Assembly (NCBI GenBank): GCA_016841525.1
Contig: JAENYZ010000001.1
Location: 124,001 to 188,000 of the forward strand
DNA: 64,000 nt
Origin: Anaerolineaceae bacterium
GTDB lineage: Bacteria; Chloroflexota; Anaerolineae; Anaerolineales; Anaerolineaceae
Direction: 5' to 3'
The translations under genes and the position numbers were made by a program. The notes beneath the pieces were generated by a model, which was not told the DNA's origin, made no database searches, and was given only the letters and a program-made list of their open reading frames with translations. Positions 43,843 through 58,518 of this stretch are shown here, piece after piece (the first letter of the stretch is position 1; every line of letters starts with the position of its first letter).

Positions 43843-44437
43843 AGAAACACCTCCTTTAGAATTATAAAACCCGAATAATTTCAATTGATAGTGTTATAAA
43901 AAACAAAACCCACAATAATTTCCAGTTCAATAAACCTCAATCACTGTATAAGTAATCGTTCTTAAATCTTGAAATACCTAAGTACGCTTTAATTCAGAGT
44001 AACGTAATAATATTTTAATTAAAATCCATTTTAATATCACTACATTTTCCCTGTCAAGTGTTAATCAATTACTAATGATTTCATAATAAAACTGCTTCTA
44101 TGGAAGCACTTTCATACTATAGTCAAACCTAATCACCTCTCAAATAGATAAATTTATTATAATTTCGCTTTTATTTTATGTCAAATGAATTTTTTAGAGA
44201 ATTATTGGTAATAAATGTTTTACAACTCAATTGCCCCAAATCAACGGCAGAAAATATTCAAATAAGTCAGTTTGTGGTATTGGCATTGGGGTCGCTGTCG
44301 GGTAAATGCCGCTTTCGTAGATAGCTTGTTAAGATTGATTTACATCCGCCCCGGATGTCTGATCTGATAATCCAAGTTAGCTATTCCCCATTATACTTAG
44401 AGGCATCATTCATCAATATTTCTTGACACGAGGGCTT
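43843..44437. other. Divergent regulatory region between the aglE-like and GH31 genes
   Basis: No gene is supported in these 595 bp. Contents: a minus-strand TATAAT (43866-43861), an inverted repeat TGCTTC-TATG-GAAGCA (44093-44108), a plus-strand TATAGT (44118-44123), a possible stem GGCATT/AATGCC (44282-44310), and a hairpin ACATCCG-CCC-CGGATGT (44342-44358). The TGCTTC repeat is the best operator candidate. No regulator gene adjoins. Confidence 0.5.
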
Positions 44438-46906
44438 ATGCTTGATTTCCTAAAAACTAAGTTTAAATCAAAAGCAAATATGGATTCAATTGTTCAAAAA
44501 GGACCGATTAGGATTACAATCCTGACATCACAACTGATTCGTTTGGAATACGATCCATCCTGTATTTTCGAAGATCGCCCAACCCAGGTTGTTTGGCATC
44601 GACAATTCCCGATGCCGAAATTCAAAAAATCAGTCGATGAAAGTACGATTCTCATCGAAACCAGCGATCTGGTTTTACGATACGAAATCAATGAATTTGG
44701 ATTTCACGAGGATTTCCTCCAAATCACGATAAAAGAAAATCAACAAACCTGGTTTTATGGGCAAGAAAACAACACCAATTTAAAAGGCACGGTTCGAACT
44801 TTGGATCGGGTTAATGGCGCTATCCCCTTGAACCCCGGATTAATCTCAAGGTCAGGGTGGGCGCTTGTAGATGACAGCAATTCCCTAATCATCAATCGTG
44901 AAGGATGGATCGAGTATCGTTCATCACCCTCAGGAACAAAAGATTTATATTTTCTGGGATATGGCAGCAATTTCACACAATGTATTATCGATTTTCAAAA
45001 ACTTTCCGGTCGTATACCCATCCTTCCCCGCTTTGCCCTCGGAAACTGGTGGAGTAGATACTGGGCTTATCACCAGGATGAACTGCTTGAGCTGATGAAC
45101 GACTTTAAAGAACGAGATATTCCCCTGTCTGTATGCATTGTTGATATGGATTGGCATATCGTCGACACTGGAAACGAAAGCTCAGGTTGGACTGGTTACT
45201 CCTGGAATCCAGAGCTCTTCCCAGACCCCGAAAGCTTCATCAAAGAAATTCATCAAATGGGCTTAAAAACTGCCCTCAACCTTCATCCTGCTTTAGGTGT
45301 CTACCCCCATGAATCAGGGTATGAGGAAATGGCAATCAGGCTGGGTATTGATCCCGAATCACAAGAACCAATACCATTCGATATTGCAGACCAGGAGTTC
45401 ACAAAAGCCTACTTCGGGGTTCTCCATTATCCCCTTGAAGATATGGGGGTCGATTTTTGGTGGTTGGATTGGCAGCAAGGAACCCAAACTGCTATTCAAG
45501 GGTTGGATCCCCTATTCTGGTTAAACCACCTCCACTTCTTTAATCGTGCAAGAGATGGGAAAACAAGACCCTTCATCTTTTCACGCTGGGGCGGCCTGGG
45601 AAGCCAGAGGTACCCGATTGGTTTCTCAGGAGATACCTATGTCACGTGGGATACAATCCAATTTCAACCCTATTTCACAGCGACCGCTGCAAACGTTGGT
45701 TACGGTTGGTGGAGTCATGATATCGGTGGGCATATGGGCGGCGTTGAAGAGCCGGAACTTTTCACACGTTGGGTTCAATATGGGGTTTTCAGCCCAATAT
45801 TCAGAATGCACTGCACCAACAACCCCTACCACGAACGTCGTCCGTGGGGATATGATGCCGAAACAGAACGCATCACAAAACAAGCCATGCAATTAAGACA
45901 CGCCTTCATCCCTTATCTCTATACTGCGGCGTGGAAAAATTACAAAGAAGGCATTTTACCCATTCGCCCAATGTACCATCTGTATCCTCACGACGAGAGC
46001 GCTTATCAATGCCCAAATCAATACACTTTTGGGAGCGAACTAATTGCAGCACCTTTCACCACACCGCGTGATGATGATACGCGCCTCAGCCGCAACATTG
46101 TCTGGCTCCCTGAAGGAGATTGGTTTGACTTTTTCACCGATGAATACTACTCAGGCGGCGGTTGGTATGCAGTTTATGGTGATTTACATCGCATCCCCGT
46201 TTTTGCAAAAGCAGGTGCCATTATCCCTTTATGCCCAAGCCTTGGGAGGGCGAGCATCGAACTGCCTGACACCCTGACGATCAACATTTTCCCGGGCGCA
46301 GGTAATAAATTCACACTTTATGAAGACGATGGCGAAACACTGGCATATCAGGATGGCAAATATGCGTTAACCAACTTCTTTCTGAATTGGCATCAAAGTG
46401 AATGCGAATTTACCATTGATCCTGTCGTTGGCGAAAAAGACCTCCTTTCCCCCAAAAGGATCTTCAAACTAATTTTTCATGCGATCAAAGCGCCTGATAA
46501 TATTCAAATAGAGGTCAACAACAAGGCAATCGAGACCTCAATCCATTACAACGACGATACAGAACAATTAATTCTCACAGACATCGTTTTATCTGTTAAT
46601 GACCAGTTAAATGTCAGAATTATCGGATCTAATGGATTGTTCTCAAAAGGGGATCGCAAAAAAGAAACCATGTTAAACATGCTGAAGACATTCAAGATGA
46701 ATTCATATATCAAACAAGCATTGGACTGGCGAATTGATCAATTATTGATCAATCCTGTGATCCTTCTTGAATTTGCAGACCGTATGGCAGACAGTCACAT
46801 CCTCGCCCTTGTTGAAACATGGTTGGGCAGGCAGGATGAAAAAATCATTTCTAATCCTGAAGAAGCCTTTCAAAAAATCATAAACACCCTTTACCATTCT
46901 AAATAA
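44438..46906 (+). CDS. GH31 family alpha-glucosidase
   Basis: Exo-acting alpha-glycosidase of 822 aa without a signal peptide, so cytosolic. Residues 1-200 form the N-terminal beta-sandwich. The barrel holds the nucleophile D344 in DFWWLDWQQG and the acid/base D399 in SGDTYVTW, after HFFNRARDGKTRPFIFSRWGG. C-terminal beta domains follow, plus a helical tail of about 100 residues (from FKMNSYIKQALDW) not usual in the family. ATG 44438 is chosen since AGGG precedes it. Divergent from the sugar importer; probably releases glucose from imported alpha-glucosides. Substrate (maltose, isomaltose) is not proven. Confidence 0.9.
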   Translation: MLDFLKTKFKSKANMDSIVQKGPIRITILTSQLIRLEYDPSCIFEDRPTQVVWHRQFPMPKFKKSVDESTILIETSDLVLRYEINEFGFHEDFLQITIKENQQTWFYGQENNTNLKGTVRTLDRVNGAIPLNPGLISRSGWALVDDSNSLIINREGWIEYRSSPSGTKDLYFLGYGSNFTQCIIDFQKLSGRIPILPRFALGNWWSRYWAYHQDELLELMNDFKERDIPLSVCIVDMDWHIVDTGNESSGWTGYSWNPELFPDPESFIKEIHQMGLKTALNLHPALGVYPHESGYEEMAIRLGIDPESQEPIPFDIADQEFTKAYFGVLHYPLEDMGVDFWWLDWQQGTQTAIQGLDPLFWLNHLHFFNRARDGKTRPFIFSRWGGLGSQRYPIGFSGDTYVTWDTIQFQPYFTATAANVGYGWWSHDIGGHMGGVEEPELFTRWVQYGVFSPIFRMHCTNNPYHERRPWGYDAETERITKQAMQLRHAFIPYLYTAAWKNYKEGILPIRPMYHLYPHDESAYQCPNQYTFGSELIAAPFTTPRDDDTRLSRNIVWLPEGDWFDFFTDEYYSGGGWYAVYGDLHRIPVFAKAGAIIPLCPSLGRASIELPDTLTINIFPGAGNKFTLYEDDGETLAYQDGKYALTNFFLNWHQSECEFTIDPVVGEKDLLSPKRIFKLIFHAIKAPDNIQIEVNNKAIETSIHYNDDTEQLILTDIVLSVNDQLNVRIIGSNGLFSKGDRKKETMLNMLKTFKMNSYIKQALDWRIDQLLINPVILLEFADRMADSHILALVETWLGRQDEKIISNPEEAFQKIINTLYHSK

Positions 46907-46918
46907 AGGCAATCACAA

Positions 46919-46959
46919 AAAGCGCATTGGGTTCAAGCCCCAATGCGCTTGGCTTTTTT
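46919..46959 (+). terminator. Terminator of the GH31 gene
   Basis: Stem AAGCGCATTGGG / CCCAATGCGCTT (46920-46931, 46939-46950), 12 bp, then GGCTTTTTT. Confidence 0.9.
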
Positions 46960-47227
46960 AATCTTATCTATTTTTCATTTATTAATTTAAAGGGATCCTT
47001 GGAGTAAGGGGCTCAAGTCCTGAGCCCGTAGGGCGTGAGGATTAGCCCAATAGATTTCGATTAATTGATTATTCATTTTAAGACTGGAAGATTTTCGAAA
47101 GGATGACCTTTCCTAATAATTATCCTTTTAACACAATGTAATCGGCCTAAAGGCCTCACTCCAATTCACATTAAGAATTCAACGCACTTTGAATTTGTGA
47201 ATATCACGCTGGCGACTTAAAAATTTC
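46960..47227. other. Intergenic region between convergent GH31 and GH13 genes
   Basis: No gene is supported. It includes the hairpin GGGCTCA-AGTCC-TGAGCCC (47009-47027), and nearby GC-rich words that contrast with the AT-rich surroundings. It could be a dispersed intergenic repeat. No clear terminator for the GH13 gene is seen. Confidence 0.5.
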
Positions 47228-48865
47228 TCATGAATCCCAGGGTTTCGTTTCCATTCGCTTTCTGATCAAGTTTTGATAAAACTCAAACAGGTCTTTATCC
47301 TGCGCCTGTCCCCAAACCATAGCACTCCTGCTGGCTTCAAGTCCGACAGCGGAAGTCTTGCTCATTTTTTGACGTAACCCAACCTCGGTCCCATAATAAA
47401 TTATTGGCGGACCTGGCATTTGGAACTGTATTTCAGCAGCCTTTTTAAGTTTTTCAACCTCATCCCCTGCAATATACAGAAAACGATCCATATCATGATT
47501 GTCCAAAAAACTCATCATTAGAAAATCATCCGGGAAATATGTCTTATGATTCGATAAGAAATTTTCAAACTGTGCCTCTGTCCAATATCCTGTGCCGACA
47601 CCCTTACGCACAGCTTCACAAAGGTGGAAATCCAGAAGGCCATCCATTCGCCCTGAGTATTGAAGCTGTACATCTGGGGGTTCAACAATCTCCCCAAAAC
47701 ATATGCTTTCCGGCCTCGCTTTTTTACATGTCTGCCAGAACTCACCCCAAAAACCTGGCCCCGGACCGTTGGCATGATCAAGCCTGTATCCGTCAACATC
47801 AAATTCCTCGAGCCAGTAGCGCGCAATATCAAGCATCCAGTTGCGTGCCGCTGGATGGTTCAAATTAACTTGCGGCATGGAGCGAACACCAAAAAAGGTG
47901 CGGTAACCAATTTCATCCTCTGGATCAAAGAAGAACCAGTCGCGATAGGTACTTTTCGTATTGCTTAAGGCATCCAGGAAGTAAGGGTGTTTGCATGAAA
48001 TATGATTGCATACCAGGTCAAGAATGACCTTTATTCCCCGCTGATGCGCCTCGTCAACAAGTTCTGCAAGCGCAACATTACCGCCCAATTCATCTGCAAC
48101 ATGATAGTAATCCGTGGCATCGTAACGGTGAATACTCGGGCTTTCAAAGATTGGGCTCAGCCAAATTGCCGTTGCACCTAACGAATGGAGATAATCCAGC
48201 TTATCTTTGACACCATGCAAGGTGCCGCCAAATGTTTTCTTCAGATTTTTTATTTGAATCCAATCCTGACCATTGCCAGGGAAGAAGCGATCCACAAATA
48301 TATGGTAAATGACGGCTTCTTTTGCCCATTTTGGGGGCTTTAGTTCATCGACATAAATAGAAAATACTTTACCTGCAGAAGGGTCACCCAGAAATTTAAC
48401 CGGGGGCAGTTTTTTTGTGTCAAAATAAACCTTGGCAGCATTTTCAATGGTTAATTTGACATCCGGCCAATCAGCATATATTTCATCCCCGTTTTCATTC
48501 CAACCGCTGATCATGTACCGCAATTCCGTTCCGTCTGGATGTGGAGGTAGGCCTGCTTCCCACCTTTGTAGGTAACCCCAATTGAGCGTGTCCCAAACCA
48601 TGCTCACTTTATGAAAATTTACGACATACCCCTTTTCTGCTTTACCTCGAGAACCAAGCGGGTTCTGCCCATCCAACGTGTAATAGCAGGCGATTTGATC
48701 GATCGCCACATCCGGCCCAGACTGGACAATGAGTATAATAGGTTCAATCGGTTCAGGGTCTTGTGGAATCGCAGCATAAGCATGCTGAATGCCTCTTTGG
48801 GTCGTTCGTTGATAGAGCAGCTTCAACGGATCCGTTGATAAAGTACCAAAGATAAAGTCTTCCAT
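47228..48865 (-). CDS. GH13 alpha-amylase family enzyme (neopullulanase/cyclomaltodextrinase-like)
   Basis: Alpha-glucan hydrolase of 545 aa without a signal peptide, so cytosolic. Residues 1-145 form an N-terminal beta domain. The barrel starts at WAKEAVIYHIFVDRFF. Conserved regions: DLVCNH (283-288), nucleophile D363 in DGYRLDHANG, acid/base E392 in FGEIVEPP and D458 in FLDNHDMDR. The protein ends about 85 residues later at KPWDS and appears to lack the usual C-terminal beta domain. It is the last gene of the marR-malEFG unit and would cut imported maltodextrins before GH31. Confidence 0.9.
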   Translation of the reverse strand: MEDFIFGTLSTDPLKLLYQRTTQRGIQHAYAAIPQDPEPIEPIILIVQSGPDVAIDQIACYYTLDGQNPLGSRGKAEKGYVVNFHKVSMVWDTLNWGYLQRWEAGLPPHPDGTELRYMISGWNENGDEIYADWPDVKLTIENAAKVYFDTKKLPPVKFLGDPSAGKVFSIYVDELKPPKWAKEAVIYHIFVDRFFPGNGQDWIQIKNLKKTFGGTLHGVKDKLDYLHSLGATAIWLSPIFESPSIHRYDATDYYHVADELGGNVALAELVDEAHQRGIKVILDLVCNHISCKHPYFLDALSNTKSTYRDWFFFDPEDEIGYRTFFGVRSMPQVNLNHPAARNWMLDIARYWLEEFDVDGYRLDHANGPGPGFWGEFWQTCKKARPESICFGEIVEPPDVQLQYSGRMDGLLDFHLCEAVRKGVGTGYWTEAQFENFLSNHKTYFPDDFLMMSFLDNHDMDRFLYIAGDEVEKLKKAAEIQFQMPGPPIIYYGTEVGLRQKMSKTSAVGLEASRSAMVWGQAQDKDLFEFYQNLIRKRMETKPWDS

Positions 48866-48909
48866 AATTAAAAAATCTATCCTTATTATGTGTGCTGAAT
48901 TAAATAAAA

Positions 48910-48957
48910 TACCTCTACTGACTCTCCTGCAAAAGAATTTGAAAGTCAGTAGAGGTA
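48910..48957 (-). promoter_or_regulatory. Hairpin between malG-like and GH13 genes
   Basis: Fourteen-bp perfect arms TACCTCTACTGACT / AGTCAGTAGAGGTA with a 20-nt loop, followed on the minus strand by TTTTATTT. It lies 13 nt after the malG-like stop. A partial terminator reducing GH13 expression is likely. Confidence 0.75.
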
Positions 48958-48970
48958 ATTGCTTACAAAA

Positions 48971-49861
48971 CTAACCTTTCACAGCACCAGCTGTTAAACC
49001 GCCTACAATCTGGTCCTGTAAAACAAGGTAAATGATCATGATTGGGAGTGCGGCAATCAAAGCACCCGCCGAAAATACACCCCAGTTTTGGGTATATTGA
49101 CCTGAGGTATAAATCTGCAATCCAACCATTACAGTCTGAAGTTCACGCTTGGTTAACAATGTTCGTGCAATGATGAATTCGCCGTAGGTGCCAATGAAGC
49201 TCAAAATCCCAATCACAACCAAAATGGGCCGTAATAATGGGAGGATTAGCTTGGAAAACACCTGCCAATCATTTGCACCATCGACATGGGCAGATTCATC
49301 GATATCTCGGGGAATCGTATCCATATACCCTTTCATCAACCAGATGTTCATACCCATTGCGCCGCCCAAATAGACGAGGATTAATCCGGCATGTGTGTTG
49401 AGACCAAGCGCTGCAAACACATCACCAATTTGCTTACTGATTGAGAATAAAGCGACAATCGCTAATAAATTGGGGAAGCTTTGAACAAGCAAAATCGTCT
49501 TTAGCAGCTCCTGGCGGCCTTTAAAACGGAAGCGGGAAAACGCAAAGGCTGCCATCGTTGTCAATGATAAGGTTAACACAGTCGTGATTGTAGAGATTTT
49601 AATTGAATTCCACAACCAGGTAAAAAATGGGAAAATGGGGTTATTGATAAGCTCTCGAAAATTCTCAAATCCAGCATTATCAGGGATCAATTTTTGCGTC
49701 GCCAGGTTATTGACTGGGTCAATAGAAGCAGAAACAATCCAAATTACAGGGAATATGCTAAATATGACTAGAACCGCTGCCAATATCAACCGTAGGATCA
49801 ATCCAAGACGGCGCTGTTGGGTAATTGTCTTTGTTTTCTTGGCTTTAGTTTGATCAGACAT
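48971..49861 (-). CDS. malG: Maltose/maltodextrin ABC transporter permease MalG
   Basis: A 296-aa permease with six predicted helices. The EAA loop is ESAHVDGANDWQVFSKLILPLL, and it ends GLTAGAVKG, as in MalG. ATG 49861 is chosen over TTG 49870: it starts inside the malF-like 3' end (ATGTCTGA overlap, 8 bp) after GGAG. With MalF it forms the membrane channel of the maltodextrin importer. ATPase (MalK/MsmX-type) not encoded here. Confidence 0.92.
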   Translation of the reverse strand: MSDQTKAKKTKTITQQRRLGLILRLILAAVLVIFSIFPVIWIVSASIDPVNNLATQKLIPDNAGFENFRELINNPIFPFFTWLWNSIKISTITTVLTLSLTTMAAFAFSRFRFKGRQELLKTILLVQSFPNLLAIVALFSISKQIGDVFAALGLNTHAGLILVYLGGAMGMNIWLMKGYMDTIPRDIDESAHVDGANDWQVFSKLILPLLRPILVVIGILSFIGTYGEFIIARTLLTKRELQTVMVGLQIYTSGQYTQNWGVFSAGALIAALPIMIIYLVLQDQIVGGLTAGAVKG

Positions 49862-51458
49862 TTTCTCCAACCTCCTCCCACATATTGGTGAACCTGAATT
49901 GAATCAATGACATGACGGCGATCAGCATAAACAACACAACAGATATCGCTGACGCATAACCATATTGAACACCGCGACCACTGGCAAAGGCTAAATTGTA
50001 GACATAACTGATGATAATGTCCGTATAGCCTGCAGTAGTTGTTGCAGTTGGTATTGGCGGTCCACCATTGATGAAGATGTATATAAGGTTAAAGTTATTA
50101 AAGTTGAAGATAAAAGAAGCAATCATCAACGGGCCAACTGAAACCAATAGTAATGGCAGTGTAATCCGCCAGAAACGTTGAAAACCTGTCGCACCGTCCA
50201 CCTCTGCTGCTTCATAGATGTCACTTGGGATCGATTGCAAAGCGCCGCTTGTCACCAACATCCAATATGGATATCCCAACCAGGTGTTCACCGTCAAAAT
50301 AGCAATTCTTGCTAAAGTGGGCACATTAAACCAATCTGGTGATATGCCGAGAACGCTTTCCAACAAACGATTGACGATCCCCAAATCCGGGTTTAACATA
50401 CCTCGCCAAATCAAAATTGTGATCAAGCTTGGGATGGTGTAAGGAATGATCAAAAACGACCGTAATAGTTTCTTTCCCTTAAAGTGAGGATCGCCATAAA
50501 TCACGGAAATTAATAGGCCCAAGGAAAAAGTTAGCAGCAGGCTCATTGCCGCAAATATGAAGTTCCATGTGACAATGGTCACCAGGGGTCCTCGCAAACC
50601 AGGACTGGTTGCAAATTCCACGAAATTATCAAAGCCAATCACGGCATTGTAACCAGGAATGAGCTGCGTTCCATCCCTTGCAGTCCATGTACCTTCCTGG
50701 TTGTAGTAAATTTTTCCGGTTTGTTGGTTTGTAAAGGTATTGTCGTCCGGGTTATATTCATAGAGCGGGAGTAGTTCAGCCGCCTCAGAAGGTGATCTGA
50801 CCTGAATTGTTTTTTCCGGATCACCAAATTTAATGTTTGTGAGGTTTTGATCCGTGGCAGCAAGAATCCTGTTCAAACGAGTGTAACCTTCAATTGTTAC
50901 TGGCGCGCCTTCATCATCAATCTCACCAATACCATTTTCACCCGGCACAACATCAAAAATGCGGGTCTCGCCTTCAGATTCAACCGGTCTCGCAATAAAA
51001 GTGTTTCCTTCATTATCCTTCACCCACAAAAGGTAATCATTATCATCTGACCGGTAGGCAACCCATTCGTAGGCTTTGCCTGTTTCAGGCAAATAAGTCT
51101 GGTTGGTTATCTGTTCAATCGCCTGGGTTTGCGATATTAAGTGCCCATCGCCATAATTCGTGAAGGCGTTATAAATTGTGAACAGAATTGGAAAAATTGA
51201 AAAAAGCAACCAGGCAGACAGGCCAACAACTATCCATCGTAAGTGACTTAACTTTGGAATTAAGAACGCTGCTGAAATTAGTAGAATAATAATGATAAAA
51301 ACAACGGTGAGAGGAATGTAGCCCATACTGGCTAACTGGTACGTGATGTATCCAAGCAAAACATCCACTGCTATAATAATGAATGTGGTTATGAAGGAAG
51401 AAAGGCTTGAAATTGACTTCTTTGCCACAGTTCCTATGGAACCATTCTTATTTTCCAT
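49854..51458 (-). CDS. malF: Maltose/maltodextrin ABC transporter permease MalF with large P2 loop
   Basis: A 534-aa permease. The first three helices (about 20-105) are followed by an extracytoplasmic domain of about 170 residues (about 115-285), like the P2 loop of E. coli MalF that contacts MalE. The remaining five helices hold the EAA loop EAAEVDGATGFQRFWRITLPLL. AAAGGAG lies 9 nt before ATG. Its length and the P2 loop make MalF the best name. It is downstream of malE across a strong hairpin. Confidence 0.92.
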   Translation of the reverse strand: MENKNGSIGTVAKKSISSLSSFITTFIIIAVDVLLGYITYQLASMGYIPLTVVFIIIILLISAAFLIPKLSHLRWIVVGLSAWLLFSIFPILFTIYNAFTNYGDGHLISQTQAIEQITNQTYLPETGKAYEWVAYRSDDNDYLLWVKDNEGNTFIARPVESEGETRIFDVVPGENGIGEIDDEGAPVTIEGYTRLNRILAATDQNLTNIKFGDPEKTIQVRSPSEAAELLPLYEYNPDDNTFTNQQTGKIYYNQEGTWTARDGTQLIPGYNAVIGFDNFVEFATSPGLRGPLVTIVTWNFIFAAMSLLLTFSLGLLISVIYGDPHFKGKKLLRSFLIIPYTIPSLITILIWRGMLNPDLGIVNRLLESVLGISPDWFNVPTLARIAILTVNTWLGYPYWMLVTSGALQSIPSDIYEAAEVDGATGFQRFWRITLPLLLVSVGPLMIASFIFNFNNFNLIYIFINGGPPIPTATTTAGYTDIIISYVYNLAFASGRGVQYGYASAISVVLFMLIAVMSLIQFRFTNMWEEVGENV

Positions 51459-51485
51459 ACCCTGCTTCTCCTTTCAATGATTACA

Positions 51486-51515
51486 AAAGGAGACCAGGCA
51501 AACCTGGTCTCCTTT
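51486..51515 (-). terminator. Intercistronic hairpin between malE-like and malF-like genes
   Basis: Perfect 13-bp stem AAAGGAGACCAGG / CCTGGTCTCCTTT with a CAAA loop, 18 bp after the malE-like stop. On the minus strand TTTTG follows, so it is a partial terminator or a stabiliser of the upstream mRNA, giving more binding protein than permease. Confidence 0.8.
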
Positions 51516-51532
51516 GATTTTAGTTTTTCAAA

Positions 51533-53119
51533 CTAATCCTGGACAATCTCAAGTAAGTGAGTTTCCGGATCGTAGATGAATTGAACTTCACCCTCTTCCT
51601 CAACGGTAAAGGTAATGTTGTCGCCGCCAGCAACGCCGTCAACACCATAGTTGGTGTCCCAACCGCCGTCGTGGGCAACTTTGATTTCGTAATCGCCTGC
51701 AGGAATGGTAAAGGTTGCATAGTACAAACCATCATCACCCAATTCCATTGCTGTATCGGCACACGCAGGATCCCATTCACAGTCAGAAACTGTCGACTGC
51801 CACGAGCCTGGCAGGTTAATCATGCCTGTCGTATCGGAGGAAATCGCTGCAACAATTGCTTCTTGTGCAAATGTGTAAGCTTCTTCAGGGGTCTTCTCGC
51901 CATTCAAAATAAAGGTGAGTGCATTACCCCAGTCACCCCAGACTTTGCCCATTTCAGGAATAGCGGGCATTGGCTGGGCATTGGCACCAGCTTCAGCAAT
52001 TGCCTGTAAATCAGGATCATCCATGGCTTCCAGTGCAGGAACATAGGCTGGTACGCGGGGATCAACTTCGTAGAATTTCAGCATTGTTTCCTGTGTAGCA
52101 ACATATTCGGTTAAGAATGCTTGCGCAAGGAGGATATTATCACTGAAAGCGTTGATCATGAAGCCCTGAACCCCCATGAAGGGTTGGCCGCCATCGGGGA
52201 ATGCAGCAACAGCATAGGGTGTGCCGGCTTCGCGCAGGTTGTTAAGCTCCCACGGACCGTTCATGAAGAAGGCGACATCGCCATTCAGGAACATGGACTT
52301 GGCTGTCGTGTTATCGGTATTGTCAGAAAGAATGCCGTCCTCTACCCACTGGAGTGCCATCTCACCAAACTGGATCATACCTTCGCTGCCAACACCAACA
52401 TCGGTCGGATCGTAGTCACCGTTCTCATCTGTGCCGAAGATGTAACCGCCCTGAGAGGTCATCCAGGGATAGGCATCATAGGAGGTGCCGGCTAAAACGA
52501 TACCATATTGAATGGTGCCTGCATCGATCAGCTCCTGGCTGATTTCCTTAACACCTTCCCAGGTTGTTGGTACTTCTTCAACATAGTCTGTGTTGTAGAA
52601 AAAGCCCAGGTTTTCTGTCGCATAGGGCATACCGTAAAGTTCACCCCCATAAGTAAAAGCATTCAGAGCTTCTTCAACAAACTCGTCAGCCTTTGGTCCC
52701 AGGTCAATCGGGGCAACCAGACCGCTGGCAACCAGCGCTGCTGCTTGGTCATGGGCCAGGATGATGATGTCAGGACCTTCACCCGCGGGTGCAGCCACAG
52801 AGAATTGATCGCGAATACCTGAAATGTTTTCAACAACAAGCTCCACGCCGTATTCTGCCAGGAAATCAGGTGCAAGTTCACTTAAAACTGGTGCACGCTG
52901 CTCATCTGCCCAAATGCGGATGGATGCTGAAGGCTCAACAACTTCTTCTGTTGGTTCAACAACTTCTTCAGTCTCTTCGGTTTCTTCCACAACCGGTTCT
53001 TCGGTTTCTTCCACAACCGGTTCTTCGGTTTCTGGCTCGGGGGTTGCTTCAGGTGCGCATGCCCCGAGAACAAAACTGGCGATTAGTATCACCGCTAATA
53101 AAATAAACCTTTTCTTCAT
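51533..53119 (-). CDS. malE: Maltodextrin-binding lipoprotein fused to an X25-like starch-binding domain
   Basis: A 528-aa surface lipoprotein. The signal ends in LGAC with lipidated Cys21. Residues 22-65 form a Glu/Pro/Val-repeat linker encoded by a 24-bp tandem repeat. Residues about 66-425 are a MalE-type solute-binding fold (ADEQRAPVLSELAPDF, FFMNGPWELNNLREAG). Residues about 430-528 are an extra beta domain (LPGSWQSTVSDCEWDPACADTAM..., AGDYEIKVAHDGGWDTNYGVDG) that matches the X25 module of Bacillus pullulanases. The module would add glucan binding at the cell surface. AAAGGAG precedes ATG. First transport gene after marR. Confidence 0.88.
   Translation of the reverse strand: MKKRFILLAVILIASFVLGACAPEATPEPETEEPVVEETEEPVVEETEETEEVVEPTEEVVEPSASIRIWADEQRAPVLSELAPDFLAEYGVELVVENISGIRDQFSVAAPAGEGPDIIILAHDQAAALVASGLVAPIDLGPKADEFVEEALNAFTYGGELYGMPYATENLGFFYNTDYVEEVPTTWEGVKEISQELIDAGTIQYGIVLAGTSYDAYPWMTSQGGYIFGTDENGDYDPTDVGVGSEGMIQFGEMALQWVEDGILSDNTDNTTAKSMFLNGDVAFFMNGPWELNNLREAGTPYAVAAFPDGGQPFMGVQGFMINAFSDNILLAQAFLTEYVATQETMLKFYEVDPRVPAYVPALEAMDDPDLQAIAEAGANAQPMPAIPEMGKVWGDWGNALTFILNGEKTPEEAYTFAQEAIVAAISSDTTGMINLPGSWQSTVSDCEWDPACADTAMELGDDGLYYATFTIPAGDYEIKVAHDGGWDTNYGVDGVAGGDNITFTVEEEGEVQFIYDPETHLLEIVQD
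52974..53033. repeat. 24-bp tandem repeat encoding the MalE linker
   Basis: Unit at 52974-52997 repeated exactly at 52998-53021 with a 12-bp partial copy to 53033. It codes for the EEPVVEET repeats of the linker. Length variation by slippage is possible. Confidence 0.9.
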
Positions 53120-53182
53120 TTTTTACTCCTTTGAATTGTAATTAAGATATTTTCCTGCGTGATGTTGAATCTCAGCTGATGT

Positions 53183-53626
53183 TCAGCTATAGACTGCGCT
53201 CGACAGTTCTTTTTCGATGCTGCTGCTAATTTTCGTGAATACTTCCAGCTGATCTTCGTTCAGTTTTGATAACATTTCTTTAACGTATTCCTTGTATTCT
53301 AAACTCACCTCCTTATATATTTGTTCACCTTGTTTTGAAAGATAGAGCTGGAAACTCCTGCGATCTTCTGGATTTTCCAGTCGGTAAATCAAGTCATCAT
53401 TTAACATCCCCTGGATAATTCTGGATGTATTTCCCTTTGTGCACAATAATTTTTCACTCAGGTCCATGTAATTTATTCCCGGATGATCATTCAAATGTTT
53501 TAACACAAAAAATCGGGATGTCGTCAAACCAAATTTTGAAAATAGCGATTTTTCTCCATTATCGAGATGCAGCCCGATGGATTTCATTGACTGATATACT
53601 ATTTGATAATTGTCCGATGACGACAT
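53183..53626 (-). CDS. MarR family transcriptional regulator
   Basis: A 147-aa winged-helix DNA-binding protein. The DNA-binding part runs LTTSRFFVLKHLNDHPGINYMDLSEKLLCTKGNTSRIIQGMLNDDLIYRLENPEDRRSFQLYLSKQG, with the wing motif EDRRSFQ typical of MarR. Flanking helices form the dimer. ATG 53626 is chosen: GGGAA lies 6-7 nt before it, and the longer frame would start in the promoter. It directly precedes malE on the same strand, so it is the likely regulator of the maltodextrin operon and of itself. LacI or MalT regulators are the more usual partners of such operons. Confidence 0.88.
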   Translation of the reverse strand: MSSSDNYQIVYQSMKSIGLHLDNGEKSLFSKFGLTTSRFFVLKHLNDHPGINYMDLSEKLLCTKGNTSRIIQGMLNDDLIYRLENPEDRRSFQLYLSKQGEQIYKEVSLEYKEYVKEMLSKLNEDQLEVFTKISSSIEKELSSAVYS

Positions 53627-53661
53627 TACCATTTCCCAGATATAGTTGATGTGTAAACCCA

Positions 53662-53688
53662 ATTATAATACTTTTTTTGATTTGTCAA
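53662..53688 (-). promoter_or_regulatory. Promoter of marR-malEFG
   Basis: TTGACA (53688-53683) and TATAAT (53667-53662) on the minus strand, both perfect hexamers, but with only 15 bp between them. Short spacing fits a promoter that needs DNA distortion or regulator help. The leader to ATG is about 30 nt. Confidence 0.65.
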
Positions 53689-53910
53689 TATGAACTTTAA
53701 ACAATTTTAATTAATAATCAGTTTATCATCAATTAAATGCTGTTAGAAACCTTATACAAAGGAAATAATTTTTTCAAAAAGCAATAAAAATAAGTCGAAC
53801 TGAACGAAAATCATCAATAAAATGCATCGTTATAAAATTGGTAATAATGACAAAAAAACAAGAACACAGTATGATTAAATCATGATTTTATTGTGGAAAT
53901 CAAAATTTTT

Positions 53911-54825
53911 ATGACGACTTATAAAAATGCCCAACTGTTCTATAATTCGGATTCCGGCCAAAGCAAAAAAGGCCGACAATTAGAACCTATCAGGGAATAT
54001 TTTGAGCAGCACGGCATCCCACTAAAGATAACAAAGTTTCCTGCTAAGGGCGAAGACATAAAAACGGCTGTCGATCAAATTTCCGTGGAAGATGTAGATT
54101 TGTTTGTTGCAGCGGGTGGAGATGGCACAATTTCATTGATAAGCAACAAATTGATCGGCACAGAAATCCCCCTGGCAATCCTTCCCCTTGGGACGGGAAA
54201 CCTCCTGGCACAGGAATTACAAATCCCTCTAAATCTTGAAAAAGCACTTTCCTTGCTAACGAACGATCAATCAAAAACAATCTTGATGGATACAATGAAA
54301 TTGGAGGATCGTTCTTGTCTTCTTAATGTCAGTGTAGGTGTAACGTCAAAGGTAATGAAAAATACGCTGGCAGTAGAAAAACAAAGGTATGGCATTTTTG
54401 CCTATATTGTGCACTTTATTCAACAATTTTTAGGCCTCAAACTTAATCGTTACTTTGTGGAATATGACGACAAAAATATCACTTTTCGTGCATCAGAGGT
54501 GCTTATTACAAATGGACAATCCACAGGTGTCGAAAATCTTAAATGGTCAAATAAAATCGCGATTAATGACGGGAGATTGGACCTGTTCATCATTCGTGCG
54601 ACCAATTTCATGGATGTCATTAGACTCGTTTTCTCAATTTTTCAAAAGAAGAGTGAACAAAACAATGTGATGAAATACCTTCAATTTTCTGACTACTGTC
54701 GCATTGAAACACAAACACCAACACCAACGCAAGCTGATGGAGACACCATTGGAGAAACACCCATCGAAATCCATATCAAACCAAAATCATTAAAAGTAAT
54801 TGTTGGAGAAAACTATAATAATTAG
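53911..54825 (+). CDS. Diacylglycerol kinase catalytic domain lipid kinase (YegS/DagK-like)
   Basis: Cytosolic ATP-dependent lipid kinase of about 304 aa. The nucleotide loop GGDGTISLI and the LPLGTGNLLAQEL motif are hallmarks of DAGK_cat enzymes; the C-terminal beta domain ends with QADGDTIGETPIEIHI. It may phosphorylate diacylglycerol or a related lipid. I start at ATG 53911; an in-frame GTG at 53893 is also possible. Neither has a good ribosome-binding site. The AIF-like gene follows after 21 bp, so the two are probably co-transcribed. Confidence 0.88.
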   Translation: MTTYKNAQLFYNSDSGQSKKGRQLEPIREYFEQHGIPLKITKFPAKGEDIKTAVDQISVEDVDLFVAAGGDGTISLISNKLIGTEIPLAILPLGTGNLLAQELQIPLNLEKALSLLTNDQSKTILMDTMKLEDRSCLLNVSVGVTSKVMKNTLAVEKQRYGIFAYIVHFIQQFLGLKLNRYFVEYDDKNITFRASEVLITNGQSTGVENLKWSNKIAINDGRLDLFIIRATNFMDVIRLVFSIFQKKSEQNNVMKYLQFSDYCRIETQTPTPTQADGDTIGETPIEIHIKPKSLKVIVGENYNN

Positions 54826-54846
54826 AATAAATGTAAGGAGGAAATT

Positions 54847-56040
54847 ATGAAAGAATACAAATATATTATCGTTGGTGGTGGCATGACAGGGTCATCAGCC
54901 GTAATGGGGATTCGGAAAAATGATCCTGATGGAACAATTGCCGTTATCTCAAAAGAACCCTACAAGCCATACAATCGCCCACCTCTCTCTAAAGGGCTCT
55001 GGGACGGCAAGGATATTGAGGGCATCATGCGCCCTATCGAAAAATATGATGTTGATCTCTTCCTTGAAACCCGGGTTGAAAAAATCGAACCTGATGAAAA
55101 GTGGATTCTAACAGATAAAGATGAAACCTTTAAATACGGAAAAATATTAATTGCAACCGGAGGGGAGCCCATCCAGTTGCCCGGTGCACCTGAAGGTGTA
55201 ATTTCCTATCGAACCCGTGCTGATTACGAAGAGCTCAATGAACTCGCGAAAACAAAACAAACCTTTTGCGTCATAGGCGGCGGTTTCATTGGGTCCGAGA
55301 TTGCTGCAGCGCTCACAAAGAATGATAAAGATGTGACAATGATCTTTCCAGAAATAGGTATTTCTGGCCTGCTTTTCCCAGATGATCTCTCAAAATTCCT
55401 AGATAATTATTATCGCGAGCAAGGTGTAAACATTCTAAATGGATGCCTTGTCGATTCAATATCAAAATCGGGAGACGAATACAAGGTTGAATTCCACAAT
55501 ATCGACACTGCGGAAGTCAGCAAAAGCGAATTTGATGTCATTGTTGTTGGTATTGGTTTAAAACCTAATCTTGATTTAGCAAAGGACGCTGGCCTGGAAG
55601 TTGATGACGGAATCCTTGTCAACGAGTTCCTTCAGACAAGCAAGCCTGACATCTACGCTGCCGGAGATGTCGCCAATTTTATGAATTATGGCCTGAAAAA
55701 ACGGATGCGCGTGGAACATGAGGATAATGCAAACACTATGGGTTTGATTGTGGGCAAGAATATGGCAGGAGATAAAATAAAATACGACCACATGCCATTC
55801 TTCTATTCCGATCTTTTTGATCTCGGCTATGAAGCCGTTGGTGAAATGAACAAGGATTTCACAATCGTCTCAGATTGGATTGAACCCTACAAAAAAGGAA
55901 CAATTTATTACCTGGATGACAACAAGATTGTAGGTTTAATTTTCTGGAATCTCTGGGGCAAAGTTGACCAGGGACGAGAAATTATTCAAGAAGGTAAAGA
56001 ATACAAGGACAAAGATTTAAAGGGGTTGTTTACAGAGTAA
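54847..56040 (+). CDS. AIF-like FAD/NAD(P)H oxidoreductase
   Basis: A 397-aa flavoprotein. The FAD motif is IIVGGGMTGSSAVMGI (about 7-22), followed by YNRPPLSKGLW. The NAD(P)H motif is VIGGGFIGSEIAAAL (about 141-155). The second FAD motif is DIYAAGDVANF. The C-terminal domain (HMPFFYSDLFDLGYEAVGEM) resembles apoptosis-inducing factor-like ferredoxin reductases. It probably passes electrons from NAD(P)H to a small carrier. AGGAGG lies 6 nt before ATG. A terminator follows. Confidence 0.9.
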   Translation: MKEYKYIIVGGGMTGSSAVMGIRKNDPDGTIAVISKEPYKPYNRPPLSKGLWDGKDIEGIMRPIEKYDVDLFLETRVEKIEPDEKWILTDKDETFKYGKILIATGGEPIQLPGAPEGVISYRTRADYEELNELAKTKQTFCVIGGGFIGSEIAAALTKNDKDVTMIFPEIGISGLLFPDDLSKFLDNYYREQGVNILNGCLVDSISKSGDEYKVEFHNIDTAEVSKSEFDVIVVGIGLKPNLDLAKDAGLEVDDGILVNEFLQTSKPDIYAAGDVANFMNYGLKKRMRVEHEDNANTMGLIVGKNMAGDKIKYDHMPFFYSDLFDLGYEAVGEMNKDFTIVSDWIEPYKKGTIYYLDDNKIVGLIFWNLWGKVDQGREIIQEGKEYKDKDLKGLFTE

Positions 56041-56054
56041 ATCCGATAATTCAA

Positions 56055-56097
56055 TTAAAACGGTCTGGAGATATCCAGGCCGTTTTGTCATTTTTTT
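56055..56097 (+). terminator. Terminator of the AIF-like gene
   Basis: Stem starting AAAACGG and ending CCGTTTT (56057-56086) with inner CTGGA/TCCAG arms, followed by T7 at 56091-56097. Confidence 0.88.
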
Positions 56098-56148
56098 ATT
56101 AACCTGTTAAAAAACACTGCCCTGAAAACTTATAAATTTAAACCTTCT

Positions 56149-56511
56149 TCATACTCCGTCAACATTTTCAACATCACTTTTTGTGATATCCAATTTTTCA
56201 TCTTGCTCTGGGTTCAATTCTTGTTCTATATCCATGCTGGATTCCCGAAATGTGTTCCTGATCTCCCCCGTGGATCTGTCTAAATCTGCAATCGTCTTCT
56301 GTATCTCCGCGTCTTCCATCAATTTCTTGGGGATATCCTGAATCTCTCTTGATGTAGAAACAAGATCTTTCCAGAATTGTGAGCTGGTCAGCCCCTTGAT
56401 CCAGCGCGCCACATCACCCGCTGCCTTAATCGCCTTTTCGGGACCCAGCACAATAAAAGCAAGAAGCAGAATAAAAACGAATTCAAGCGAGCCAACATTA
56501 AAGAGCTTCAT
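56149..56511 (-). CDS. tatB: Sec-independent translocase protein TatB-like
   Basis: A 120-aa TatA/B family protein. The N-terminal helix FNVGSLEFVFILLLAFIVLGPEKAIKAAGDVARWI shows the L-G-P-x-K hinge of the TatB type (TatA has F-G in this spot), followed by an amphipathic helix. The C-terminal half is charged and disordered. It is the last gene of tatC-tatA-tatB and lies 16 bp after tatA. TatA versus TatB assignment is by length and hinge residues. Confidence 0.85.
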   Translation of the reverse strand: MKLFNVGSLEFVFILLLAFIVLGPEKAIKAAGDVARWIKGLTSSQFWKDLVSTSREIQDIPKKLMEDAEIQKTIADLDRSTGEIRNTFRESSMDIEQELNPEQDEKLDITKSDVENVDGV

Positions 56512-56527
56512 CTAATAACAATAAACT

Positions 56528-56725
56528 TTACTGATCATCGTTTTCTGATAAGTCTTGTTCCTCAGAATTTTTTTCGTTCTTCTTATCACCGGTCAAACCA
56601 TCTTTGAAAGCACGGATGCCCTCACCCATTTCTCCAGCAATTTTGCTAATTCTTCCGACTCCAAAAACAAGCAAAACAATCACTAAAACGATAATTAACT
56701 CAGGCCAACCAACCCATTTTGGCAT
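56528..56725 (-). CDS. tatA: Sec-independent translocase protein TatA
   Basis: A 65-aa pore-forming subunit of the twin-arginine translocase. The helix WPELIIVLVIVLLVFGVGRISKIAGEMGEGIRAFKDGL carries the FG hinge and the F-K-x-G motif. The C-terminus is acidic. It sits between tatC (1-bp gap) and tatB. Confidence 0.93.
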   Translation of the reverse strand: MPKWVGWPELIIVLVIVLLVFGVGRISKIAGEMGEGIRAFKDGLTGDKKNEKNSEEQDLSENDDQ

Positions 56726-56726
56726 T

Positions 56727-57452
56727 TTATTCTCCTTTTTTTTCTTTCTTTGCTAATGCTGCTAAAAGTATACCTAACAAATATAATCCAAACAACGGCG
56801 CCATCAATATCGCCATATTGATCGGGTCTGGGGTCGGTGTTGCAACTGCAGCGATCACCGCGATGATGATGATCGCAATGCGCCATTGCTTCGCCAGCCC
56901 CTTTGCGTCAATAATTCCCAGTTTCGCTAGAAGATACATCACCAACGGTGTCTCGAAACTCAAACCTATCCAAAAAATCAGGTTCGTCACAAAATTGACA
57001 TAATCTTTCCACTTTGGCAGCACATCTGGTCCCGGAAATTCAACCAAAAATGGAAGGGCTGTCGGCAGCATGACAAAGTAAGCAAAGACTGCACCGCCAA
57101 GAAATAACAATGTCGCAATTGGGATTGCCCATAGTACCCATTTTCTTTCTTTTGTGGTCAATCCTGGTGAAATAAACAACATAATTTGGATTAAGATAAA
57201 GGGCAAAGCGATAATAAATCCAGCTAACATTGTCACCCGGAAATAAACGCTGATATTTTCGGTAACCTGGATGGACAAAAGGTTTTCCAGTCCTCCGATT
57301 GGACGCGCTACCCATTCAAGTAATTGATCCCCAAAGATAAACCCAACGACAACACCCACAATCAATGCCGCGACTGAATAGAACAAGCGCTTACGTAACT
57401 CGTTGAGGTGCCCCCAAATAGTCATTTCCCGGCTTTGTTCACTCATATCCAT
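56727..57452 (-). CDS. tatC: Sec-independent translocase protein TatC
   Basis: Receptor for twin-arginine signal peptides, 241 aa, six predicted membrane helices. HLNELRKRLFYSVAALI near the N-terminus is the twin-arginine-binding motif. Also conserved are FIISPGL-like LFISPGLTTKERK, and the F-E-x-P motif in GLSFETPLVMYLL. An in-frame ATG six bases downstream is an equally possible start. First gene of the tat operon. Tat substrates are expected to be folded cofactor-containing exported proteins; none is certain in this window. Confidence 0.95.
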   Translation of the reverse strand: MDMSEQSREMTIWGHLNELRKRLFYSVAALIVGVVVGFIFGDQLLEWVARPIGGLENLLSIQVTENISVYFRVTMLAGFIIALPFILIQIMLFISPGLTTKERKWVLWAIPIATLLFLGGAVFAYFVMLPTALPFLVEFPGPDVLPKWKDYVNFVTNLIFWIGLSFETPLVMYLLAKLGIIDAKGLAKQWRIAIIIIAVIAAVATPTPDPINMAILMAPLFGLYLLGILLAALAKKEKKGE

Positions 57453-57684
57453 TTCTCAGTATCAATAGACGATGTTTCGTAAGTAATTTTATCACTTGCC
57501 ATGAAGGATACCAAATCACACTTTAAATTACGAAAAAGCAATCCGAGAAGGATCAAATATCAAAGATTTAGAGTTATTTTGCTAATTACTTTGCCTACAT
57601 CTTCTCAATAATTCATCATATGTAAACGACTACACGAAACGGATTTAAATGCCTTCTTCTCCATCCTCGCAAAAAAATCGAATA

Positions 57685-57714
57685 TTGATGCGTAATTTGG
57701 ATATGTGTGATAAT
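57685..57714 (+). promoter_or_regulatory. Extended -10 promoter close to the M15-like gene start
   Basis: TTGATG (57685-57690), 18-bp spacer, and GATAAT (57709-57714) preceded by TGT. Only 9 nt separate the -10 from the ATG, so the mRNA would have a leader of 2-3 nt at most. Confidence 0.55.
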
Positions 57715-57723
57715 TAAGCGCAA

Positions 57724-58518
57724 ATGGACAAATATGTGAAGATTTCAAGAAAATTCATTGCCCCTTTCATTTTGGCACTCTTCCTTCTTTCTGCTTGCAC
57801 CGCTGGGACGAAGGAAGAGTATTTGGTTATTGACTATCCCACCCTGGAAAAAACAACTGCCTCTACAATATCCTCAGGTACTGAGGTGTGGACCAACACC
57901 CCCACAAAAACGCCACAGGAATTCTTTGCCACATCCACAGCATTGCCCCACATAGGCTTAGCATGCAAAAAACCATCTGAGGACTATTCCCGTATAGATA
58001 TCAATGGGTATCAACTTAACCAACGAACATTCGAGATGCTTCAATTAGCACAAACACTTTATGATGGAATCATTGATATCACCGGTGACGCGATCACACA
58101 GGGTTCTTACACATCAGCAGTTGAAGCAAGTTTTGGGACACATGCGGGCGGCGGGGTTGTCGACCTATCAGTGATGGCACCAGGCACATATACTATTCTC
58201 TATGAGGATATCGATCCCCTTATTAAAGCGCTTCGCTCAGCCGGTTTCGCTGCCTGGTACCGGGATCTGGATGAGCTTTACGATGGCTCCCCTTCCCACA
58301 TCCATGCCGTGGCAATAGGCGATCGAGAGCTTTCCACAGCCGCCAGGGAGCAGCTTGCCGGGCAATTCGGCTATTTTTGGGGCTACAACGGGCTGCCCAC
58401 TACAGACAAGAAACCTATTCGGGATCCTCATGGTGGTCCTGTCCTTTGTGATTGGATGATCGAAAAGGGATATCCCAACAAAACTGCCACCCCACCACCT
58501 GGTGAAACGGCCCCATGA
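57724..58518 (+). CDS. Lipoprotein with peptidase M15-like domain
   Basis: A 264-aa surface lipoprotein. The signal ends in the lipobox LLSAC (Cys25). A Thr/Ser-rich linker follows (about 30-75). The body contains GTHAGGGVVDL, where His140 and Asp147 match the first zinc ligands of M15 peptidases (H-x6-D), and SPSHIHAVA (His192 and His194) near the site of the later ligands. It probably binds zinc and may cleave peptidoglycan cross-links or peptides; the general-base Glu was not identified. Located between the tat operon (divergent) and tRNA-fMet. Expression may use a leaderless mRNA. Confidence 0.65.
   Translation: MDKYVKISRKFIAPFILALFLLSACTAGTKEEYLVIDYPTLEKTTASTISSGTEVWTNTPTKTPQEFFATSTALPHIGLACKKPSEDYSRIDINGYQLNQRTFEMLQLAQTLYDGIIDITGDAITQGSYTSAVEASFGTHAGGGVVDLSVMAPGTYTILYEDIDPLIKALRSAGFAAWYRDLDELYDGSPSHIHAVAIGDRELSTAAREQLAGQFGYFWGYNGLPTTDKKPIRDPHGGPVLCDWMIEKGYPNKTATPPPGETAP

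Follow-up and report, generated by a model that had tools for sequence, protein, structure and literature searches.

SusE and SusF of Bacteroides thetaiotaomicron are surface lipoproteins that serve a starch importer and are separate proteins of the diderm SusCD system; they possess starch-binding, X25-like domains and lack a solute-binding protein (SBP) domain. SusE and SusF have been termed X25 proteins, the SusF modules are quoted at Kd ~300 uM, and the Ruminococcus bromii proteins Sca5 and Sas20 bind starch with pairs of X25 modules (PMC9112005, in excerpt). In the Sca5 structure 7RPY, maltotriose is held by W509, N564, W661 and N684, and the Sas20 counterpart of W661, W481, is essential for binding of both maltotriose and maltoheptaose, whereas the isolated Sca5 lobes X25-2a and X25-2b bound neither sugar (PMC9112005, in excerpt). 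The pullulanase of Bacillus acidopullulyticus (BaPul) has its X25 module between the X45 modules of a debranching enzyme, and its deletion had little effect on pullulanase activity or saccharification, according to the accessible part of PMC4712565. Carbohydrate-binding modules (CBMs) on hydrolases and a separate maltodextrin transporter are described in the accessible part of PMC4765114. On the transport side, the MalE receptors of Thermotoga maritima (2GHA, 2FNC; chains of 381-382 aa) end where the SBP domain ends.

We analyzed a 64,000-nucleotide stretch of an Anaerolineaceae genome (hereafter the window), in which these two kinds of protein are joined in a single frame. The original prediction had placed an X25-type module fused to a MalE-type lipoprotein at positions 51533-51830, and this interval indeed corresponds to residues 431-528 plus the stop codon of a malE-like gene on the minus strand (51533-53119, 528 aa). 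The reading frame is unbroken and encodes, in order, a signal peptide, an acidic tether, a MalE-type SBP domain and a C-terminal X25 module. The fusion is real: a Brevefilum sp. contig (JARGGB010000072.1, locus L032) carries the same full-length protein with 97% identity, and it is therefore not an assembly artefact of the window genome, which is itself Brevefilum-like. The parts of the protein are as follows.

53057..53119, minus strand: lipoprotein signal peptide, residues 1-21, with the lipobox LGAC ending at Cys21 (by eye from the translation)
52925..53056, minus strand: acidic tether rich in Glu, Pro, Thr and Val, residues 22-65, ~44 aa (translation)
51839..52924, minus strand: MalE-type solute-binding domain, residues 66-427 (SBP_bac_8; T. 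maritima MalE 2GHA)
51818..51838, minus strand: short linker, residues 428-434 (linker lengths across 37 single-X25 MalEs)
51536..51817, minus strand: X25 module, residues 435-528 (PF22058, fold, residue conservation)
51773-51775, 51659-51661 and 51617-51619, minus strand: putative glucan-site residues W449, W487 and N501

The SBP domain, which the window protein has in common with the T. maritima and E. coli MalE proteins, matches 2GHA over residues 66-427 (E 3.3e-80) and SBP_bac_8 over residues 82-358 (E 3.3e-42). The protein scores 215.4 bits against the NCBIfam MalE model, under the cut-off of 291, and is therefore termed MalE-type here and not filed as an equivalog of the E. coli protein. 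We compared ten positions that we take to be ligand residues of E. coli MBP; in the 2GHA-search alignment, five of them (D65, E111, Y155, W230 and W340) are retained as D124, E169, Y214, W290 and W394, and the other five (D14, K15, W62, R66 and E153) are not kept. The lipobox, read by eye as VLGAC at residues 17-21, includes two residues, A20 and C21, that are invariant across the window protein and 10 aligned relatives. Together with the adjoining MalF- and MalG-type permeases, the SBP match and the lipobox bear out the original assignment to the MalE-type lipoproteins.

The C-terminal module is an X25 module by sequence and by predicted fold. The Pfam family PF22058 (X25_BaPul_like) matches residues 435-521 with E 5.1e-24 and 84.6 bits, about three times the cut-off of 27, and the last 105 residues searched alone give E 2.7e-25; PF18033 (SpuA_C) does not match the window protein. 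In a phmmer search of the PDB with the tail, 2WAN (the BaPul X25 module) was found with E 7.3e-7 and 7RPY (Sca5 X25-2) with E 8.8e-4. Streptavidin entries, which the profile search listed from E 0.006 upward, were dismissed as chance matches. For the isolated module (residues 424-528, aligned with 10 relatives), AlphaFold2 gave a model of mean pLDDT 81 that superimposes by VIA-align on 2WAN residues 163-258 with Z 12.7 (92 residues, 30% identity), on 7RPY residues 492-591 with Z 10.8 and on the N/F domain of Amy703 with Z 10.3. The resemblance to SusF (Z 7.9), SusE (Z 7.2) and AMPK glycogen-binding domains (~5) is weaker, and VIA-align scores below 8 taken alone are little proof. Foldseek with the same model ranked 2WAN and 7RPY at the top as the sole two matches under E 0.001; 2WAN is the best match by both sequence and fold. 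Thus, the predicted fold is not an unrelated one but that of X25, in line with the original prediction, although the latter's description of X25 as otherwise known from pullulanases was too narrow in view of Sca5, Sas20 and SusE/SusF (PMC9112005, in excerpt). The full-length AlphaFold2 model (11 rows) is poor, with a mean pLDDT of 62, and no domain geometry is claimed from it.

The gene stands in the order malE-malF-malG, as in the T. maritima and E. coli MalE systems used for comparison, and is surrounded by genes of alpha-glucan metabolism and a candidate regulator.

53183..53662, minus strand: regulator of the MarR family, the neighbour of malE on its upstream side (PF01047 at E 3.9e-12, over the cut-off)
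51486..51515, minus strand: malE-malF stem-loop of 13 bp with a T run at its end, terminator-like (RNA folding)
49854..51458, minus strand: malF-like permease (NCBIfam MalF 397.7 bits, cut-off 392; TM_PBP2_N)
48971..49870, minus strand: malG-like permease (NCBIfam MalG 249.4 bits, under the cut-off of 261)
47228..48865, minus strand: GH13 hydrolase with no evident signal peptide (PF00128 E 1.5e-63)
44423..46906, plus strand: alpha-glucosidase-like GH31 glycosidase, convergent with the mal operon (PF01055 E 4e-65)

The GH13 hydrolase, whose best NCBIfam model is cyclomaltodextrinase at 221 bits, far under the cut-off of 540, is probably cytoplasmic. A malF match lies next to malE in all 53 loci examined (37 fused and 16 without X25), and a MarR homologue is located just upstream of malE in nine of the ten loci L032-L041, with none seen in L034. 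The stem-loop between malE and malF has a folding energy of -23.2 kcal/mol (z -3.14), a value reached by 2 of 200 shuffled sequences, and occurs at the same place in nine relatives aligned with the window. Among these 10 sequences both-side changes are observed at 6 of the 13 pairs, and at least four T follow the stem-loop in seven rows, the exceptions being L034, L039 and L040. This element may allow malE to be produced in excess of malF and malG. A search of window positions 44000-58000 against Rfam gave no match above gathering scores.

The window genome (3.2 Mb, 9 contigs, 97.3% complete) possesses no other X25 match at E <= 0.001. It contains 11 GH13 matches, one of them weak, in 10 frames including that of the window. 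Two further GH13 proteins look exported, namely a 1711-aa protein that combines GH13 with CBM20 and begins with a signal-like sequence, and a GH13 protein that resembles a lipoprotein, so the genome encodes enzymes that could release maltodextrins outside the cell. The 1711-aa protein (locus L103, 5924-11059, minus strand) also has a Big_5 domain, a weak fn3 match and, close to its N terminus, a pair of stretches that look alike by eye and have no Pfam name. In two other genomes, a second, distant SBP gene is located directly upstream of the MalE-X25 gene (L055, 3400-4536; L056, 1-1140).

By scanning 396 Anaerolineae genomes, we found X25 in 114 of them and a MalE-like match (E <= 1e-30) in 110. 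A full-length search, in which a fusion was counted when the query end reached at least residue 512, identified matches running from the SBP domain into X25 in at least 34 genomes from 10 family codes; three candidates per genome were scored, which makes this number a lower bound, and in two of the 34 genomes (G097 and G019) the match starts inside the SBP domain. Thus, the fusion recurs within the class. The loci examined, which are not a random sample, contain 37 distinct frames with an SBP domain and one X25, four with two X25 (L064, L083, L084 and L086; Pfam also finds both modules in L064, L083 and L086) and 20 SBP frames without X25 among 61, as well as 28 non-SBP frames that carry two, three or four X25. 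The non-SBP proteins (loci L002-L029) have X25 modules of two sequence types, termed odd and even, which usually alternate.

In a phylogenetic tree of 60 SBP domains from this non-random set (36 with one X25, four with two and 20 with none), the presence of X25 requires at least five changes, three of which are forced by well supported branches. One member of an X25 clade, L070, lacks X25 and has a short acidic tail instead, with malE and malF kept. The X25 tree, built on too few columns to fix its branches firmly, groups most of the single MalE modules and places both modules of L083 and L084 elsewhere, hinting at a separate gain of X25 in these two loci. In a genome that shares the genus code of the window (G253, locus L053), the MalE-X25 protein is only 54% identical and clusters with sequences from other families; the receptor at this locus may have been replaced or transferred. 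Among 301 Chloroflexota genomes (Anaerolineae included), X25 was detected in 42, of which 30 are outside Anaerolineae, and strong X25 matches in full MalE-size frames (529, 530, 546 and 587 aa) are restricted to Anaerolineae. Frames outside this class include one of 300 aa that matches X25 at E 2.5e-23 and one of 564 aa whose match is weak (E 5e-4). Beyond Chloroflexota the search covered plasmids: in PLSDB, 402 of 72,556 plasmid records match the window protein used as query (P0001) and four match X25; the four X25 places comprise one pulA and frames of 872-960 aa, and no SBP domain was found within the 6-10 kb around any of them (L106-L109). A Mesobacillus foraminis plasmid SBP record aligns over residues 3-457 with 26% identity and is absent from the X25 matches listed.

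The putative glucan site of the window module was compared with that of Sca5, for which a hand-counted offset of 477 in 7RPY puts the published W509, W555 and N564 on the right letters. In the phmmer alignment, W449 corresponds to Sca5 W509 and N501 to Sca5 N564. W487 falls on Sca5 W661 solely in weak second-lobe alignments (scores -0.3 and 3.0). W661 is paired with W555 in the accessible part of PMC9112005, yet W555 falls on or beside Y491, and not on W487, in the first-lobe alignments. Therefore, the correspondence between the Sca5 maltotriose site and the window X25 is likely, not certain. All three letters, W449, W487 and N501, are conserved in 36 of the 37 single MalE X25 modules and in all eight paired ones (44 of 45). 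In the X25 modules of non-MalE proteins the full three-letter set is missing in 6 of 40 odd and 8 of 36 even modules, with both Trp lost in four of each kind. In four f7 loci (L022, L024, L026 and L028) it is an even module that lacks the site letters.

Taken as a whole, we consider it fairly probable that the window protein serves as receptor for a MalEFG-type maltodextrin importer and has, fused in frame at its C terminus, a putatively starch-binding X25 module, the most likely role of which would be to add a weak alpha-glucan grip to maltodextrin uptake at the cell surface. 'Ca. Brevefilum fermentans' CAMBI-1 is reported as monoderm (PMC5481317, in excerpt), and in such a cell the lipid-anchored receptor would stand outside on its acidic tether, so that X25, located at the opposite end of the chain from the anchor, could make weak contacts with alpha-glucan chains. 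Acting together, many receptors would keep starch or long dextrins close to the cell surface, within reach of secreted GH13 enzymes that would cut them, and the SBP domain would take the released maltodextrins for import by MalFG. The original prediction had the receptor hold the cell to starch and pass oligosaccharides on; the latter is a putative step, and the former may be too strong, because the isolated Sca5 X25 lobes did not bind and BaPul can dispense with its X25 (PMC4712565, in excerpt); weak capture relying on many copies is the safer reading. A grip like that of the SusF modules (~300 uM) might suffice if each cell displays many receptors. Also counting against the main reading are the NCBIfam MalE and MalG scores under their cut-offs, the five E. 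coli MBP ligand residues that are not kept, the 20 of 61 SBP frames (a non-random set) that lack X25 and the possibility that the Trp and Asn of the module are conserved for folding. The tether between the anchor and the SBP domain is 16-99 residues long in the 26 of 37 single-X25 rows with a recognised lipobox; none was recognised in the other 11.

Sca5 and Sas20, which use X25 to bind alpha-glucan at the cell surface, differ from the window protein in that a single site is built there from a pair of X25 lobes within a scaffoldin or dockerin protein, whereas a single X25 is attached here to an importer receptor. In another reading, which we regard as unlikely, X25 sits rigidly beside the SBP cleft and both clamp one long maltodextrin, the SBP domain replacing the second lobe of the Sca5 clamshell. 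The linker between SBP and X25 is shorter than usual CBM linkers and nearly constant in length: seven residues in 29 of the 37 single-X25 MalEs, five in two and nine in six, while its letters vary. Such a length suggests a set geometry of the two domains, although it is in part inherited from a common ancestor and varies with the point at which the profile stops; in the two-X25 MalEs the gap is 9, 18, 18 and 20 residues. The need of Sca5 for two lobes (PMC9112005, in excerpt) and the single X25 in 37 of 41 fused frames, against none of the 28 non-SBP X25 frames, agree with a composite site as well. However, these 28 frames are mostly the best-scoring X25 matches of one class, some long frames elsewhere in the phylum show one X25, as does BaPul, and the full-length model is poor. 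If true, the arrangement would grip the polymer or a long dextrin and feed its end into the importer, uniting capture and import in one polypeptide, as a design kept in many Anaerolineae with a near-constant linker length.

The second lobe could instead come from another molecule, with the X25 modules of two receptors, or of a receptor and a secreted X25 enzyme, closing on one glucan chain. The two-lobe binding of Sca5 and Sas20 (PMC9112005, in excerpt) and the four MalE frames with two X25 in one chain fit such pairing, which we nevertheless hold to be very improbable; an X25 enzyme as partner would not apply everywhere, because 9 of the 34 fusion genomes, that of the window among them, show one X25 match only. 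We also find it improbable that X25 is a structural or protein-docking appendage that does not bind glucan. The silent isolated lobes of Sca5 (PMC9112005, in excerpt), the BaPul enzyme that works without X25 (PMC4712565, in excerpt) and the absence of X25 from L070 are in line with this reading, and the conserved Trp and Asn of the MalE modules may be kept for folding; against it stands the retention of the site letters in 44 of 45 MalE modules, compared with their losses in the modules of other proteins.

Both halves of the window protein are known, with published accounts of the X25 family and of paired X25 modules that bind starch; the new element is the fusion of an X25 module to the receptor of an importer. 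In a search of the open-access literature, with few subscription journals and no preprints, we found no description of an SBP-X25 or SBP-CBM fusion among the entries listed, in agreement with the earlier statement that no characterized example was known, although the architecture may stand in the lists of Pfam or InterPro. The fusion allows a direct test of binding by a lone X25 in the protein to which it naturally belongs. Polymer-binding modules normally belong to secreted enzymes or to surface proteins of their own, SusE/F and the R. bromii scaffoldins being examples. With a module of this kind joined recurrently, and within an operon, to the receptor of an ABC importer, monoderm fermenters in anaerobic digesters would have a surface glucan binder and an import receptor in one protein.
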